NCBI GenBank assembly: GCA_944323925.1
Contig: CALUUI010000004.1
Coordinates: 62,001 to 126,000, forward strand
DNA from: Candidatus Gastranaerophilales bacterium
GTDB taxonomy: Bacteria; Cyanobacteriota; Vampirovibrionia; Gastranaerophilales; Gastranaerophilaceae
DNA: 64,000 nucleotides
Direction: 5' to 3'
Below the pieces are notes generated by a model, which saw only the letters and a program-made list of their open reading frames with translations, searched no databases and was not told the DNA's origin. The position numbers were made by a program, and so were the translations under genes. Each line of letters begins with the position of its first letter. The first letter of the stretch is position 1. This document shows, in pieces, positions 18,900 through 26,123 of this stretch.

Positions 18900-20618
18900 A
18901 TGGATAAATTGTATCCTGTATATACGTTAAATAATGAGTGTCACGATTGTTACAAATGTGTAAGAGAGTGCCATGTAAAAGCAATAAAAATTCAGGACGG
19001 TCACGCATCAGTAATGCCTGAAAAGTGTATTGCTTGCGGACATTGTGTAAAAACGTGCCCAAGTAATGCAAAACGTGTAAGAAATGATATTGAACGTGTA
19101 AAAAATTTATTTAGAGCACAGAAAGAAGTATTTGTTTCTCTAGCGCCAAGTTGGGCAGGAATTTTTGAGCACAGTCCTGAAAAAATGATTTCTATACTTA
19201 AAAAGCTAGGATTTTCACATGTAAGTGAAACAGCGTTAGGCGCACAAGAAGTATCGATTGAAACTAACAGGATAATGCAATCAAAAGAGAGCGGATTATT
19301 TATTTCCTCTGCCTGCCCTGTTGTTGTTGATTATATAAGAATGTATAATCCAAAATTTATTGATAATATTGTTCCAATAGCATCTCCGGCACTTACGCAT
19401 GCAAAGTTATTGAAGGAAATGTATGGAAACCAAATATCGGTTGTCTTTATAGGACCGTGTATTGCAAAGAAAAATGAATCAGATAGACATCCCGAATTAA
19501 TAGATGTAGCGCTAACTTTTGAGGAATTAAAATTATGGGTGACCGAAGAATTTGGCTCTACTCAATCAATAGAATTCAACAGTGATGAATATTTTGTGCC
19601 AGAGGCTGCGTGTGAAGGTACTCTATATGCTGTTGAGGGCGGAATGAATGAAACTATTAAAAAGGGTGGAATCCCAGATGATGTGCAGTTACTTAATATA
19701 AGTTCGATAGAAAATCTTGAAAAAGCTTTAGCAGGACTTAATCCAAATAATATGAATAAAAAAATATTTATTGAAGCTCTTTCTTGTAATGGCGGATGTT
19801 TAGCAGGCCCTTGCAGTTCTTCTAAAAAATCAGAAGTATTAAGAGTTTCGGATATATTATCTAAAGTTAAACTAAGAAATGATATCCCTAAGGAACCAAA
19901 AACCGTTGCAGAAGAAGTATATAAGTTAAAGAAGCTGGAACATCATACTTTTAGTACAGAACAAATAGTCGATACATTAAAGAAAATAGGAAAGCATAAT
20001 GAAGAAGATGAATTAAATTGCGGTGGTTGCGGTTATAATACTTGTCGTGAGCTTGCGGCAGCAATGCTTGCGGGTGATGCGGAACCTTCAATGTGTGTTT
20101 CATATATGCGTAAGATTGCAATGCGTAAGGCTGCTGCAATGTTGAGATGTATGCCATCTGCTATTGTTATGGTTGACAGTGATTTGAAAATAGTTGAGTC
20201 AAATGATTCATTTATGAAAATGTTTTGCGGCGAAATGTATGAAGTATTTAAAGAACGTCCAGAAGGTGTTAATGGTGCGTGTATTGACCGAATAGTGGAT
20301 TTTGCTGATGTATTCAAGCAAACTTTAAAAACTTCTCAAGATATGCATAAGGAAAGATATCCTGTAGGTGATAAGTTGTATGATATAACGGCATTTTCTA
20401 TAGAAAAAAATGAACTTGTAGGCGCTGTCATAACAGATGTTACTCAAACAGAGATGGGCAGAGAGCAGATTGCACATAAGGCTCAAGAAGTCATTTCAAA
20501 AAATATAGCTATTGTTCAAGAAATAGCATCACTTCTTGGTGAGCATATGGTAGAAACGGAATTGCTTTTAAATACTATAGCCGAAGGTTATGATTCTTCC
20601 GCTGATAAGGAGTCATAA
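18900..20618 (+). CDS. Sensory [FeFe]-hydrogenase with PAS domain (HydS-like)
   Basis: A 572-residue hydrogenase-like sensor. Two 4Fe-4S motifs (CHDCYKCVRECH, CIACGHCVKTCP) precede an H-cluster domain in which L1 is SSACP (136-140), L2 GPCIAKKNE (185-193) and L3 SCNGGCLAG (295-303). The first L1 Cys, the proton-transfer residue of catalytic enzymes, is Ala, as in known sensory groups, so turnover should be slow. A further Fe-S motif CGGCGYNTCRELAAAML (374-390) and a PAS domain (about 415-515) follow, with a helical tail. It probably senses H2 or redox state. The stop overlaps the phosphatase start (TAATG). Confidence 0.92.
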   Translation: MDKLYPVYTLNNECHDCYKCVRECHVKAIKIQDGHASVMPEKCIACGHCVKTCPSNAKRVRNDIERVKNLFRAQKEVFVSLAPSWAGIFEHSPEKMISILKKLGFSHVSETALGAQEVSIETNRIMQSKESGLFISSACPVVVDYIRMYNPKFIDNIVPIASPALTHAKLLKEMYGNQISVVFIGPCIAKKNESDRHPELIDVALTFEELKLWVTEEFGSTQSIEFNSDEYFVPEAACEGTLYAVEGGMNETIKKGGIPDDVQLLNISSIENLEKALAGLNPNNMNKKIFIEALSCNGGCLAGPCSSSKKSEVLRVSDILSKVKLRNDIPKEPKTVAEEVYKLKKLEHHTFSTEQIVDTLKKIGKHNEEDELNCGGCGYNTCRELAAAMLAGDAEPSMCVSYMRKIAMRKAAAMLRCMPSAIVMVDSDLKIVESNDSFMKMFCGEMYEVFKERPEGVNGACIDRIVDFADVFKQTLKTSQDMHKERYPVGDKLYDITAFSIEKNELVGAVITDVTQTEMGREQIAHKAQEVISKNIAIVQEIASLLGEHMVETELLLNTIAEGYDSSADKES

Positions 20619-21781
20619 TGTTTATAGATATTGATTGCTCTCAAGAAAAAAAATACGGTCAAAATGCTTATGGCGATTGTTTTATGTCAAAGCGCTATCC
20701 TGAACGTAAAGAATTAATTGCAGTATTGTCAGATGGGTTAGGAAGTGGAGTAAAAGCTAATATTCTTGCATCAATGACTGCAACAATGCTTTTAAAATTT
20801 GTAGAAGCGGGTAGGGATATAAAAAGTACTTGTGAAGTAGTAATGAATGCACTTCCTGTTTGTAAGGTCAGGAAAATAAGCTATTCAACTTTTTCACTTG
20901 CTGTTTGCGGTGAAGATGGTGAAGTAAAGATTGTTGAAGAAGGAAATCCGCAATTTGTTTATATTAGTGATGGACAGGTTGTAGAACCTGAGTTTACTGT
21001 TATTGATTCGGAAACTTTTAAAAATCGTCATATGCATGTTTATAAACTTAATCTTAAATTAGGCGACAGATTGATTTTTTGCTCTGACGGCGTAACTCAG
21101 GCAGGGCTAGGTAATCCGGATTTAAAATTGGGACTTAGAAGAAATGGTTTGATAAAATGTTTGCTTGAGAGGATAAAAGAAAATCCGGATATCACAAGCA
21201 GTGAGTTATCTAAATCTATTGTAAGATTAGCAAGAAATTTAGAAGTAGACAGGCATGCAAAGGATGATATTTCATGCTGTGTAATCCATTATCGTAATCC
21301 GAGGAAAGCACTTATTTTTACAGGACCTCCATATCATATGGAAAAGGATAGAGAGTATGCTCTTGAGTTCTGGAATTCAAAAAGTAAAAAAGCAATTTGC
21401 GGCGGTACAACTGCAAATCTTATATCAAGAGAGCTTGGAATTCCCGTTAAAACAGATATAACAAGCAGCGTTGGAAAACTTCCTGCTGTTTCGTATATGG
21501 AAGGTGTTGATTTAGTTACTGAGGGAATTTTAACGCTTACTCGTACTGTTGAATATTTGGAAAATGGATTTAATGAAAAACAGTCAAATGCCGCTTATGA
21601 GTTAATGGAATTTCTGCTAAACAGTGATTATATAGAGTTTATGGTTGGTGCAAAATTGAATCAGGCTCATTATGATCCAAATTTGCCGATTGAAATTGAA
21701 ATTAGAAAAAATATAATTAAGAAAATGGCTGAAATTCTTGAAAATAAATACTTTAAACGAGTTATTGTAAGATATTTATAA
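20618..21781 (+). CDS. SpoIIE-type PP2C serine phosphatase
   Basis: A 387-residue PP2C/SpoIIE-family phosphatase. The metal-binding motif LIAVLSDGLGSGVKANILAS appears at about residues 34-53, LIFCSDGVTQAG at about 147-158, and HAKDDISCCVIHYR at about 213-226 supplies the last Asp. The C-terminal 150 residues (after FTGPPYH) are conserved-looking but not a known output domain to me. There is no membrane segment. Directly coupled to the HydS-like gene, it is the likely output of the hydrogenase sensor, dephosphorylating an unknown partner. A kinase or anti-sigma partner is not in the window. Confidence 0.9.
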   Translation: MFIDIDCSQEKKYGQNAYGDCFMSKRYPERKELIAVLSDGLGSGVKANILASMTATMLLKFVEAGRDIKSTCEVVMNALPVCKVRKISYSTFSLAVCGEDGEVKIVEEGNPQFVYISDGQVVEPEFTVIDSETFKNRHMHVYKLNLKLGDRLIFCSDGVTQAGLGNPDLKLGLRRNGLIKCLLERIKENPDITSSELSKSIVRLARNLEVDRHAKDDISCCVIHYRNPRKALIFTGPPYHMEKDREYALEFWNSKSKKAICGGTTANLISRELGIPVKTDITSSVGKLPAVSYMEGVDLVTEGILTLTRTVEYLENGFNEKQSNAAYELMEFLLNSDYIEFMVGAKLNQAHYDPNLPIEIEIRKNIIKKMAEILENKYFKRVIVRYL

Positions 21782-22490: not shown

Positions 22491-22520
22491 TTGACAAGAA
22501 TAAACGCTTAGCATTATACT
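22491..22520 (+). promoter_or_regulatory. Strong sigma-70 consensus promoter
   Basis: TTGACA (22491-22496), 18-base spacer, TATACT (22515-22520). It is the best promoter match in the window, with expected start near 22527. Confidence 0.75.
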
Positions 22521-22539
22521 GATTTTGAAAGGGAAATAA

Positions 22540-22626
22540 ATGAATCTATACATCATAAAGAATACAAATTCATCATCCTCATCATGCTCCAAGACCAAAT
22601 GGGACTTGATGAATTTTGATGTGTAG
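22540..22626 (+). CDS. Putative 28-residue serine-rich leader peptide
   Basis: An ATG at 22540 preceded by AGGGA opens a 28-codon frame ending in TAG at 22624-22626. Residues 11-17 are Ser-Ser-Ser-Ser-Ser-Cys-Ser (TCA, TCA, TCC, TCA, TCA, TGC, TCC). These codons overlap the left arm and loop of the leader hairpin, as in amino-acid attenuators where ribosome stalling frees the partner strand. The downstream gene is not a recognised serine gene, so the meaning of the Ser codons is open. Translation is unproven. Confidence 0.4.
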   Translation: MNLYIIKNTNSSSSSCSKTKWDLMNFDV

Positions 22627-22650
22627 TTTTTTATAAGCAGATTAAATTTC

Positions 22651-22681
22651 AAAAGGGTCCCGAATTAATCGGGGCCTTTTT
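22651..22681 (+). terminator. Intrinsic terminator or attenuator before the gene at 22709
   Basis: AAAAGGGTCCCGA (22651-22663) pairs with TCGGGGCCTTTT (from 22669) around the loop ATTAA, followed by TTTTT to 22681. It lies between the strong promoter and the ribosome site of the next gene with no other promoter visible, so read-through must matter. Confidence 0.8.
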
Positions 22682-22708
22682 AGTATGAATGCAAGGAGAA
22701 GGAAAATA

Positions 22709-24244
22709 GTGGTAGCAGTAAACAGGATTCAAGTAAATAATCAACCAAATTTTAAGGGCGTTTTAGACGGTACATTTACCAATGTAATGAGATGTTTAGA
22801 TACAAATGAGATGATAAATGCAGTAGTGCTTGATGTTGGTCCAATGTCATTGCCGAGAGCATATATAGATGCAAAGCATAGAAATAAATATGCAGGAATA
22901 GAGACTCTATCAAGAGAATTGGAAGGGACATTTATAAACTGTTTATCAGCCGGCGTTTTTGCAAGTGGTATATCATATTTTGCTTCTAAGTGGGTTAATC
23001 CTGATGTACAGATTAATTCTAACAGTTGGTATTCAAAAGATTCATTAAAAACATTGCAGGCCGCTTGGGATGAAGGAGGTCAAAATGTAAAAGGGTATGT
23101 TGAAGCTGTTTTTAATAACCTTTCAGGTGTTGATGGACATAAAGTTAACCAATTTAAAGATATTGATTGGGCTAATATTGAGTGGGTTGATAGAGATAAA
23201 TGGGCAAAGATTAAGTGGCGTAACCCTGAATATAAAGGAATTCAAAACCAGATGAAAACGCCAGAAGGCTTTGTTAATTCAATGGTTAAAATTATTAATG
23301 ATAAAAATATTGTAAGGGATGACAAAAGTAATATTCTTAGAATAATGGAGCTTCGTTTAACAAACGCTTTGGGCGCAGGTCGTGATACGGCTATAACTAT
23401 CGGAAACAATAAACTTGCGGATAAATTAGAAAATATTTTACGTGATACGTATAATATGGGGAATGATATTTATACCAATAAAAATGTAAAAACCGCCGCT
23501 GCGTTTGAGAAGTTAGCTAAAATAAATAAGATGAAGATATTTGGAGCTTTAGCACTTTCATCAATTTTAGGACTGTCAAATCAGTATATAAATAGAAAAA
23601 TAACAGAAAAACGTACAGGAAGAAAAGGTTTTGTAGGAGATGTAGATTATACAACCAGAGGAAAGGATGCCAAGCAAGAGAAAGATAAATATTTGCTAGC
23701 AAAGAAAATAGCTGCGAGTGCAGGAATGGTTGCAATGGTTCTGACGGTCATGCGTGTAAAAAATTGGAAGGATTTTGTTAAAAAATTAGAGTTTACGGGT
23801 CCTGTAACAAGCGGTAATGCTATAAAAACTGTTTATGCAACAAACATAGTTGGGCGTTTTATGGCATCAGATAACAGTACGGAGCTAAGAGAGTCAATGA
23901 CCAGAGATTATTTTGGATTTCTTAACTGGCTTGTATTTGGTGGCTTTGCGGCTAAAGGCGTTGGAAACTTGCTTGATAAAACTGGTCAAAATTTATTTAA
24001 TTATCAAAAAGAGGGAAAGGGGTTAAAGCACTGGTTAAATGATATGAGTTTAAAAACTCATAATGAATTGGCCGCTAAAGGAGCAACGTTTGCAAAGAAA
24101 AATATCTGGAAACTAAATTTAGCTCACGCTGTTGGAATTACTTATTCAGCATTAACTCTAGGTTGTGCTCTCCCCTTGATTAATGCTGGTTGGACGAAAC
24201 ATAATGCCAAGAAAAAAGCTAAATTTGCAGCGCAGCAAGTATAA
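22709..24244 (+). CDS. Membrane-associated protein of unknown function downstream of the leader RNA
   Basis: A protein of 511 residues from the GTG at 22709 (519 from the ATG at 22685). The GTG is preferred because AAGGAG (22693-22698) precedes it, while the ATG has only the terminator T-run before it. The N-terminus contains NNQPNFKG, a motif echoed in other unknown proteins here. Hydrophobic stretches occur near INCLSAGVFASGISYFASKW, KIFGALALSSILGLSNQYI, AASAGMVAMVLTVM, FGFLNWLVFGGFAAKGVG and VGITYSALTLGCALPLI, suggesting several membrane segments. The rest is basic and charged. Its expression probably depends on read-through of the 22651-22681 terminator. No known domain is recognised. Confidence 0.8.
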   Translation: MVAVNRIQVNNQPNFKGVLDGTFTNVMRCLDTNEMINAVVLDVGPMSLPRAYIDAKHRNKYAGIETLSRELEGTFINCLSAGVFASGISYFASKWVNPDVQINSNSWYSKDSLKTLQAAWDEGGQNVKGYVEAVFNNLSGVDGHKVNQFKDIDWANIEWVDRDKWAKIKWRNPEYKGIQNQMKTPEGFVNSMVKIINDKNIVRDDKSNILRIMELRLTNALGAGRDTAITIGNNKLADKLENILRDTYNMGNDIYTNKNVKTAAAFEKLAKINKMKIFGALALSSILGLSNQYINRKITEKRTGRKGFVGDVDYTTRGKDAKQEKDKYLLAKKIAASAGMVAMVLTVMRVKNWKDFVKKLEFTGPVTSGNAIKTVYATNIVGRFMASDNSTELRESMTRDYFGFLNWLVFGGFAAKGVGNLLDKTGQNLFNYQKEGKGLKHWLNDMSLKTHNELAAKGATFAKKNIWKLNLAHAVGITYSALTLGCALPLINAGWTKHNAKKKAKFAAQQV

Positions 24245-24305: not shown

Positions 24306-26123
24306 ATGCGAATTAAGAAAATAGCATCTATGATGGGTGTATTGTTTGTCTTATCAGTGGGATTAATGGCTGTTAATGCAAAAGAAACAGTTGTAGCTGA
24401 TGGTGCAAGCAATAATGCTCAAACGTCAGAAAGAGCACAATATCATCCAATTTCTGATGTTCGACACGTAATTGATGAAAATACATCAAATGAAATGAAT
24501 ATTGATGTTGATAAAGTTAGACCTGCAGCACATAAGGCGGTAATTAAAGAACAAAAAGACAATGCTAAACCGGTAAATGAATTATTGCCAAAGAAAGAAG
24601 ATAAAAACGGACGTGATTTAGAATCTAGTAGTGAAAATATAAAACTAGCTTGGTTTGGTTCTAAAAAATCACCAGAAAAGGTTGAAACTACAGAGGAGGT
24701 TACTCCCACGCCCTTGGAAGAAACCAAATCTGCGGTTGAAGAAGCAAAACCCGCAATTGAAGAAACCAAACCAACGGTTGAAGAAAACAAACCTGCGGTT
24801 GAAGAAACCAAGCCTGCGGTTGAAGAAACCAAACCTGCAGTTGAAGAAACCAAATCTGCGGCTGAAGAAGCAAAACCCGCAATTGAAGAAACAAAACCAA
24901 CGGTTGAAGAAGCCAAACCTGCGGTTGAAGAAAACAAGCCTGCGGTTGAAGAAACCAAACCAACGGTTGAAGAAAACAAACCTGCGGTTGAAGAAACCAA
25001 ACCTGCGGTAGAAGAAAACAAACCAACGGTTGAAGAAAACAAACCTGCGGTTGAAGAAACCAAACCTGCGGTAGAAGAAAACAAACCTGCGGTTGAAGAA
25101 AACAAGTCAGCAGCAGAAGAAAGCAAAGCTGTAGTTGAAGAGAAACCAGTTAATAACGAAGTTGTAACACCTTCTGATGATAAACCAGTGACAGAACAGC
25201 AAGCAGTTGGCGGTTATGAGGCAATAAAAAATAAATTATGGTGTGTTACATTCCAATTGGTATGGAATACTTTCATGGATAAAGTTATACATGGTCCAGT
25301 TTTATTAGCAGGTGGAAATCCTCCTATAGCAAATGAGTTGAATAAAAAATTATATACATCTGATATTATTAATCCAGATTCTTATTATTCTACATATGGT
25401 AAGATAAGCAAAAAATTAAAAAAACAAATAGAAAAGAATATTGCCAAAAAATTCAATGAAAAAAGTGATATTTTAGATACTATTAATTGGGGTGCAAAAA
25501 ATTCTTATTTATTTTATGCAATGTTAAAGAAGGATTTTAATTTTACAACTCCTTTTGATATGCTAAAATCAGCGCCATTTGCAGGTAGCGAAGCCAATGT
25601 AAAATATTTTGGTGTAAATAAAGAAAGTGATAGAAAACTAAGAAAAAATGTTCATGTATTATTCTATAAATCACCAGATGAGTATGCTGTAAAACTTACA
25701 ACAAAAGAAAAAGAAGATGTGATATTATATCGCACAGATAAAAAAGATAGTTTTGAAGATTTATATGCATATGTTGTTCAACAAGATGCATCAGAAAGAT
25801 TTACGAAGGATGATAGTTTGATGGTTCCTAATTTTAAAATTGATAAAACAATTTCTTACGATGAATTGTGCGGAAAGAAGATAAAAGGAACTAATATGGT
25901 GATAACCCAAGCGCTTCAATCTATAAAGTTTAATATGGATAATAAAGGTGGAACCTTGAAGAGCGAAGCAGCATTAGCGATTATGAGAATGTCTTTAGCT
26001 CCAGAAATTGGACGTAAGTACCATTTTGATAAAGAATTTGTAATGTTTTTACAAGAAGAAGGAAAAGATAAGCCATATTTTGCAGTAAGGGTTGATAATA
26101 TTGAATTCCTTGTAAAAGAGTAG
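24306..26123 (+). CDS. Secreted protein with 20 heptad repeats and a C-terminal serpin-like domain
   Basis: A 605-residue protein. A signal peptide covers about residues 1-25 (IASMMGVLFVLSVGLMAVNA). Residues 141-279 are 20 units of K-P-A-V-E-E-T/N, an extended acidic spacer. From about residue 300 a globular domain follows whose end reads like a serpin: PNFKIDKTISYDEL, KFNMDNKGGTLKSEAAL at the hinge position, RMSLAPE (561-567) where the reactive loop would be, and FDKEFVMFLQEEGKDKPYFA, like the serpin FxxPFxFxI signature. The hinge has Lys and Glu where inhibitory serpins have small residues, so inhibition is uncertain. The N-terminal serpin helices are not clearly seen. A serpin-like fold is inference. 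Confidence 0.7.
   Translation: MRIKKIASMMGVLFVLSVGLMAVNAKETVVADGASNNAQTSERAQYHPISDVRHVIDENTSNEMNIDVDKVRPAAHKAVIKEQKDNAKPVNELLPKKEDKNGRDLESSSENIKLAWFGSKKSPEKVETTEEVTPTPLEETKSAVEEAKPAIEETKPTVEENKPAVEETKPAVEETKPAVEETKSAAEEAKPAIEETKPTVEEAKPAVEENKPAVEETKPTVEENKPAVEETKPAVEENKPTVEENKPAVEETKPAVEENKPAVEENKSAAEESKAVVEEKPVNNEVVTPSDDKPVTEQQAVGGYEAIKNKLWCVTFQLVWNTFMDKVIHGPVLLAGGNPPIANELNKKLYTSDIINPDSYYSTYGKISKKLKKQIEKNIAKKFNEKSDILDTINWGAKNSYLFYAMLKKDFNFTTPFDMLKSAPFAGSEANVKYFGVNKESDRKLRKNVHVLFYKSPDEYAVKLTTKEKEDVILYRTDKKDSFEDLYAYVVQQDASERFTKDDSLMVPNFKIDKTISYDELCGKKIKGTNMVITQALQSIKFNMDNKGGTLKSEAALAIMRMSLAPEIGRKYHFDKEFVMFLQEEGKDKPYFAVRVDNIEFLVKE
24726..25142 (+). repeat. Twenty tandem 21-base units encoding heptads KPAVEE(T/N/A)
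   Basis: Twenty units of 21 bases in frame, with variants KSAVEEA, KPAIEET, KPTVEEN and KSAAEES at scattered positions. Higher-order duplication is visible, since blocks of units recur nearly unchanged. The repeat leaves the antisense frame open (24443-25126), which is an artefact of composition. Confidence 0.95.

Follow-up and report, generated by a model that had tools for sequence, protein, structure and literature searches.

A predicted serine-codon transcription attenuator, derived from cysteine-codon leaders, precedes an orphan gene family in Gastranaerophilales

In a 64,000-nucleotide stretch of Gastranaerophilales DNA (hereafter, the window), we found that the leader of an orphan gene is very probably a cis-acting, ribosome-mediated transcription attenuator of the trp/his type, in which the regulatory codons are Ser (UCN) codons here and Cys codons in ancestral clades. 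Comparison of related sequences supports the parts of the leader, their conservation, their covariation and the codon bias, as well as a single Cys-to-Ser change; we infer the sensing step, i.e. a regulatory response to shortage of Ser- or Cys-tRNA. A first-pass annotation of this DNA had read the layout as translation-coupled attenuation, a reading that a lack of conservation of the ORF or stem and a lack of covariation would count against. The opposite was found, in that the mini-ORF, its Ser/Cys run, the 2:3 pairing and the terminator are kept among relatives and covary.

In the proposed mechanism, the promoter would drive synthesis of the leader RNA, and the mini-ORF would be translated at once. 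With ample charged Ser-tRNA, the ribosome would pass the Ser codons, and region 2 would be covered or paired back to region 1; with region 2 unavailable, the 3:4 terminator would form and transcription would end at ~22681. When charged Ser-tRNA is short, above all that of the UCC reader tRNA-Ser-GGA, along with that of the UCA reader, the ribosome would stall on the codon run, which is region 1. The stalled ribosome would free region 2 for pairing with region 3, no terminator would form, and the downstream gene would be transcribed. In leaders with poly-Cys runs, shortage of Cys-tRNA would play the same part.

Structural features expected of such an attenuator are present at the window locus (Table 1). 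A promoter precedes a short ORF with tandem regulatory codons, which was found at 86 loci and the translation of which is predicted; an intrinsic terminator with covarying arms lies between the leader ORF and the gene; and a segment of the ORF can form an antiterminator pairing with the 5' arm of this terminator, which excludes the terminator itself. The promoter and the 28-codon ORF had been placed correctly in the first-pass annotation, as had the terminator and the GTG start, and the promoter matches consensus at 11 of 12 positions. The two-part stem described there also holds, one half (22546-22555 with 22617-22626) containing one G-U pair and the other (22566-22575 with 22607-22616) being perfect, and GGGAC at 22601-22605 is able to pair with GTCCC at 22657-22661. 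GAAAGG(G/T) precedes the mini-ORF ATG in same-genus relatives. The terminator, AAAAGGGTCCCGA-ATTAA-TCGGGGCCTTTTT, was absent from a simple terminator scan, yet it is evident in the RNA fold and in relatives. For the predicted leader RNA (22527-22681), the folding energy is -43.1 kcal/mol, with z = -4.0 relative to dinucleotide shuffles. The earlier statement that no RNA family has this layout is true for Rfam: tRNA was the sole match in a search of the window, and none of the Thr, His, Leu, Trp and Phe leader families reached its gathering threshold (Thr_leader, 15.8 bits vs 55). A T-box riboswitch was considered and rejected, there being no Rfam match and the codon run lying in an ORF instead.

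Table 1. Predicted features of the leader and the gene that follows it (window coordinates)
Feature	Position	Strand	Basis and remarks
Sigma-70-type promoter, TTGACA-N18-TATACT	22491..22520	+	Promoter scan; also before the leader in relatives
Transcript start (~22527) and, for the mini-ORF, Shine-Dalgarno-like GAAAGGGA	22527..22534	+	Predicted from sequence
Leader-peptide ORF, 28 codons, MNLYIIKNTNSSSSSCSKTKWDLMNFDV	22540..22626	+	Counterpart ORF 5' of 79/80 fetched orthologues
Region 1, regulatory codon run UCA UCA UCC UCA UCA UGC UCC (Ser5-Cys-Ser)	22570..22590	+	Ser or Cys run kept in 86 loci
Region 2, TGGGACTTG, partner of region 1 or alternatively region 3	22600..22608	+	Covaries with region 3
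Conserved TTTTGATGTGTAG, possible RNA-polymerase pause element	22614..22626	+	Column counts; pause role inferred
Region 3, terminator 5' arm, AAAAGGGTCCCGA	22651..22663	+	Fold, relatives, covariation
Region 4, terminator 3' arm with U tract, TCGGGGCCTTTTT	22669..22681	+	Fold, relatives, covariation with region 3
Controlled gene, orphan protein of 511 aa	22709..24244	+	GTG start; in-frame ATG at 22685

The controlled gene has orthologues outside its genus as well as in each of the six same-genus genomes. All six same-genus loci (L010-L015) have the same promoter, Ser-run mini-ORF and terminator directly 5' of the gene. The same layout was found in other genera, with a poly-Ser run at one locus (L016) and Cys runs at seven others: CCCCK (L017, L018), CCC (L019), CCCC (L020), CCAC (L021), CCCS (L022) and CCCK (L023). 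A scan of GTDB contigs yielded 80 orthologue loci (L039-L118), and the leader, consisting of promoter, mini-ORF and intrinsic terminator, precedes the gene in 79 of these 80 fetched Gastranaerophilales orthologues; adding the window locus and 6 loci that are more distant gives the 86 leaders analyzed here. The lone exception, L056, has lost the ORF with its run and the terminator while keeping the promoter and a pause-like remnant. This locus is a putative natural attenuator loss, and it offers a ready comparison for constitutive expression. In a sample of 192 genomes from the order, partly of the same species, 23 loci extended far enough upstream, and all 23 carried the leader.

Poly-Cys leaders also precede a second subfamily of the gene, represented by 17 loci; 14 of these were recognized by script and one (L305) by eye. 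At L304 the end of the contig cuts the locus, yet its sequence starts with a Cys run, and L302 carries a reduced CC run. The order of elements in the leaders is codon run, region 2, stop codon, a spacer of ~18-47 nt, terminator and gene, and the terminator lies 16-106 nt from the gene. Neighboring genes are not conserved across loci; what moves together is the leader with its gene. In the genus, tandem paralogues from this broad gene family have no Ser/Cys leader. Elsewhere in the order, the mini-ORF upstream of a more distant homologue from another family (L029/L132, genome G042) contains six codons for Gln and a CC pair, and TTGCTTGCG is complementary to the arm of the terminator at this locus; the attenuator may thus have a third specificity.

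The pairings that the mechanism requires were examined across the leaders. Region 2 matched the terminator 5' arm of its own leader with a mean complementarity of 19.5, compared with 15.7 (sd 0.27) when partners were permuted, and none of 10,000 permutations reached the matched value. When 57 non-redundant Ser-type leaders were aligned, the 2:3 pairs were 96% canonical in register and 37-56% canonical when slid by one or two positions, and they showed 17 double changes, while shuffles gave a mean of 3.0 (0/500). Examples of these pairs are CGGGACTT:AAGTCCCG, CGGAACTT:AAGTTCCG, TCAGAGCTT:GAGCTCTGA and CGAGACTT:AGGTCTCG. The 3:4 pairs were 98% canonical, with 27 double changes vs 4.8 in shuffles (0/500). 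The 1:2 hairpin covaries weakly (4 double changes vs 1.6, 24/500 shuffles).

Folding in silico was consistent with a switch between these structures. The 1:2 hairpin formed in free RNA of 85 of the 86 leaders, the terminator formed in 79 of 86 full leaders, and with a ribosome placed on the last codon of the run the 2:3 pairing formed in 75 of 86, compared with 56% in the shuffled control, an excess that is moderate because the leaders are AU-rich. For a stalled ribosome acting against hairpin 1:2, the geometry fits and the predicted fold switches, against a weak 1:2 covariation and a high shuffled control.

3' of hairpin 1:2, a pause-like element, TTTTGATGTGT, is strongly conserved, with column counts (n=57) of T 52-56, G 51, T 54, G 47 and T 51. 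In the window's genus it forms part of the ORF, and many other relatives have it past the stop codon; it therefore appears to be kept as nucleic acid. The his and trp leaders have pause sites that resemble TTTTGATGTGT in their place and TGTG core. By analogy, and with reference to the consensus RNA-polymerase pause discussed in PMC6336406, a role for TTTTGATGTGT as an RNA-polymerase pause element is possible.

The leader peptides vary freely except for the Ser or Cys run, which stands at a fixed place beside the hairpin, and the residues that flank the run differ freely between genera. The choice of Ser codons in the runs is strongly biased: we counted 212 UCC, 136 UCA, 20 UCU, 4 AGC, 3 UCG and 1 AGU. 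UCC thus accounts for 56% of run Ser codons vs 5.6% in the window's genome, the latter from 820 long ORFs with 24,260 Ser codons. In the window, UCC supplies only 2 of the 6 Ser codons of the run. As the last two codons of the run are possibly bound by the hairpin, a control omitted them; UCC still made up 134 of 257 codons (52%), compared with 12 of the 130 Ser codons that these peptides have outside the run, and AGY codons numbered 1 of 257, vs 27% in the genome. The genome has a single tRNA-Ser gene for each of GGA, UGA, CGA and GCU and one tRNA-Cys gene. In known attenuators, both theory and data indicate that leaders favor the isoacceptor most sensitive to starvation (PMC1183508). In serine-starved B. 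subtilis, ribosomes were slowed at UCN Ser codons and at Cys codons, and not at AGC/AGU, and the authors pointed out that cysteine is made from serine (PMC3862929). This slowing provides a ready reason for an exchange of Cys and Ser as sensor codons, and by analogy the B. subtilis pattern fits both the UCN choice and the Cys/Ser exchange seen here.

To follow the history of the sensed codon, a tree of 57 downstream proteins was rooted on the most distant orthologues. Leader type changes once on this tree, and the poly-Ser members form one clade (SH-aLRT 99) within poly-Cys lineages. As reconstructed from the tree, poly-Cys is ancestral and poly-Ser is derived in a single change. Some Ser runs retain a Cys, including the window's SSSSSCS, as would be expected if the change was stepwise. 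At least two genomes carry two paralogues of the target under different runs. In G134, L255 is under a Cys run and L306 under a Ser run, and the peptides of these loci are those of the MAG RGIG4827 records L116 and L100, respectively; in G178, L276 is under a Ser run and L296 under a Cys run.

The controlled protein had no significant match in Pfam, NCBIfam or PDB. Its AlphaFold model (pLDDT 85, pTM 0.84) had no counterpart in a fold search of PDB and viral structures; the best PDB fold match, GltPh, was meaningless (E = 0.075, TM 0.10), and a Pfam DUF711 match (E = 0.064) did not pass the cut-off and was disregarded. The first-pass label of a membrane-protein gene is plausible but not firm, because the protein has just three strongly hydrophobic segments. 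With respect to genes of known function, its remark that no serine gene follows the leader holds; the target is not among the known genes of serine or cysteine. Genes under such attenuators typically serve synthesis, import or tRNA charging of the sensed amino acid, though this does not strictly define the class. The position of the target under this leader would suggest a role in serine/cysteine supply. An N-terminal motif, (N/A/S)F(K/R/G/T/N)G, e.g. PNFKG, PAFKG, TNFTG and RFRG, recurs in the target and in otherwise diverged paralogues. The ORF that follows the controlled gene (24306-26123, +) has a signal-peptide-like start, a long array of KP-x-VEE-type repeats and, in its C-terminal part, a weak serpin signal (PF00079, E = 0.11, last 70 model positions); its position next to the controlled gene is conserved within the genus only. 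Upstream, at 18900-21781 (+), the window encodes an iron-only hydrogenase-like protein with a PAS region and then a SpoIIE-type phosphatase, with a one-base overlap.

Further leaders of this kind were sought in 1.65 of the 1.94 Mb (85%) of the window's genome, a 42-contig assembly, using a run, an ORF, a terminator and 2:3 complementarity as criteria. The window locus was the sole convincing case among 3 gene-adjacent matches, two of which had no Ser/Cys run; when adjacency to a gene was not required, there were 7 matches vs 2 in simulated sequence. In the scanned 85% of the genome, the cysE-cysK pair, located elsewhere in it, had no such leader, and no full-length PGDH (serA) above the cut-off was found in the window's genome. 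In Cys-type genomes, eight contexts of poly-Cys sites were read besides the known leaders L285 and L288 and gave no wider regulon; all eight were rejected as leaders, being out-of-frame coincidences in coding DNA or having no comparable gene after them.

Other explanations of the leader were considered. It might be a stand-alone small RNA, as the first-pass annotation had offered as an alternative, with a UCCUC/CUCC loop acting on other mRNAs and a terminator that is merely its 3' end. Its own promoter and terminator, which predict a discrete transcript of ~155 nt, agree with this idea. However, the leader always stands directly 5' of the same gene family (16-106 nt) in unrelated neighborhoods, its reading frame is conserved, and the loop is UCC-rich in Ser types and UGU-rich at the same place in Cys types; codon content is therefore what is kept, and we consider a stand-alone small RNA very unlikely, although the leader RNA may have an additional function in trans. 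Still less credible, indeed hardly tenable, is that the run is a by-product of base-pairing in the hairpin and has no translational role. Part of the window's run does pair in region 1, but at the same hairpin position one clade has UGU/UGC and the other UCN, these codons always share the frame of a start and a stop codon, and the codon bias persists without the last two run codons.

Two further explanations keep translation of the mini-ORF and change what it senses. Conservation of an ORF and run beside a terminator is also seen in ribosome-arrest systems, and the peptide could be an arrest peptide of the TnaC/ErmCL type that responds to a small molecule in the exit tunnel, giving attenuation without a tRNA-charging signal. 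This we regard as quite unlikely, if marginally less so than the small RNA: the Ser/Cys run alone is kept, the flanks vary freely, Ser has replaced Cys, and a peptide sequence leaves the bias toward rare UCC and against AGY unexplained. A somewhat stronger contender, though still an improbable one, is that the regulatory codons are a general sensor of slowed translation, as caused by antibiotics, tRNA-cleaving toxins or stress, and that the orphan protein answers translation stress. Rare codons slow ribosomes generally, no connection of the target with serine or cysteine is known, and cysE-cysK lacks such a leader, all of which would be in keeping with such a sensor. A general sensor would need no restriction to Ser and Cys, however, and the run is confined to these two metabolically linked amino acids in the 86 leaders and in the further ones from the 192-genome sample and the second subfamily. 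Returning to attenuation by Ser- or Cys-tRNA shortage, a fuller proposal is that the attenuator switched its sensed codon once, from Cys to Ser, with architecture and target retained, that both versions report the serine/cysteine pool, and that the target is an unrecognized, Gastranaerophilales-specific family for serine/cysteine uptake or homeostasis; this proposal is tentative, and we would not yet favor it.

The proposed mechanism is classic. What is new is the amino acid sensed, the lineage in which it occurs, the orphan nature of the target and the documented shift in specificity. To our knowledge, there is no earlier serine-codon switch of the classic attenuator type. With the trp, his, leu, thr and phe attenuators (Rfam Thr_leader RF00506 and its kin), the leaders share a promoter, a short ORF with tandem regulatory codons, mutually exclusive 1:2, 2:3 and 3:4 pairings, an intrinsic terminator, a bias toward starvation-sensitive synonymous codons and a pause-like element after 1:2. 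Unlike those, they have serine (ancestrally cysteine) as the regulatory residue, an orphan target in place of a biosynthetic operon, and a Melainabacteria host. The uORFC-8-2 motif upstream of cysS in Rhodobacterales (PMC8632094) has a candidate Cys-codon uORF in its first stem followed by an intrinsic terminator, and its proposed logic is that of the poly-Cys members here; as described, it is set apart by two tandem Cys codons, the cysS target and another phylum, and that paper contains no serine version. Mycobacterial poly-Cys uORFs (PMC1262725, PMC4633059; see also Canestrari 2020, as cited in PMC13236596) likewise have Cys-codon runs in a small upstream ORF that controls downstream genes. 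They differ in having no conserved terminator hairpins, cys-gene targets, leaderless ORFs and control at the level of translation, whereas the leaders described here have intrinsic terminators, an orphan target and, at the window ORF, an SD-like sequence. In B. subtilis sinR, UCN serine codons also sense serine depletion and AGC/AGU codons are insensitive, but the sensor lies inside the coding sequence of the repressor, with no attenuator or leader (PMC3862929). The literature that we searched, which lay mostly outside subscription journals, contained no report of a serine-codon transcription attenuator and none of a leader-peptide attenuator in Melainabacteria.

We know of no well-studied member of the target's protein family. 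The leader is the first functional hint for this widespread family of gut-bacterial orphan proteins, which would be expected to be required under a shortage of serine or cysteine. Because the change of sensed amino acid has been caught on one branch, a change in the specificity of the sensor would be directly testable.
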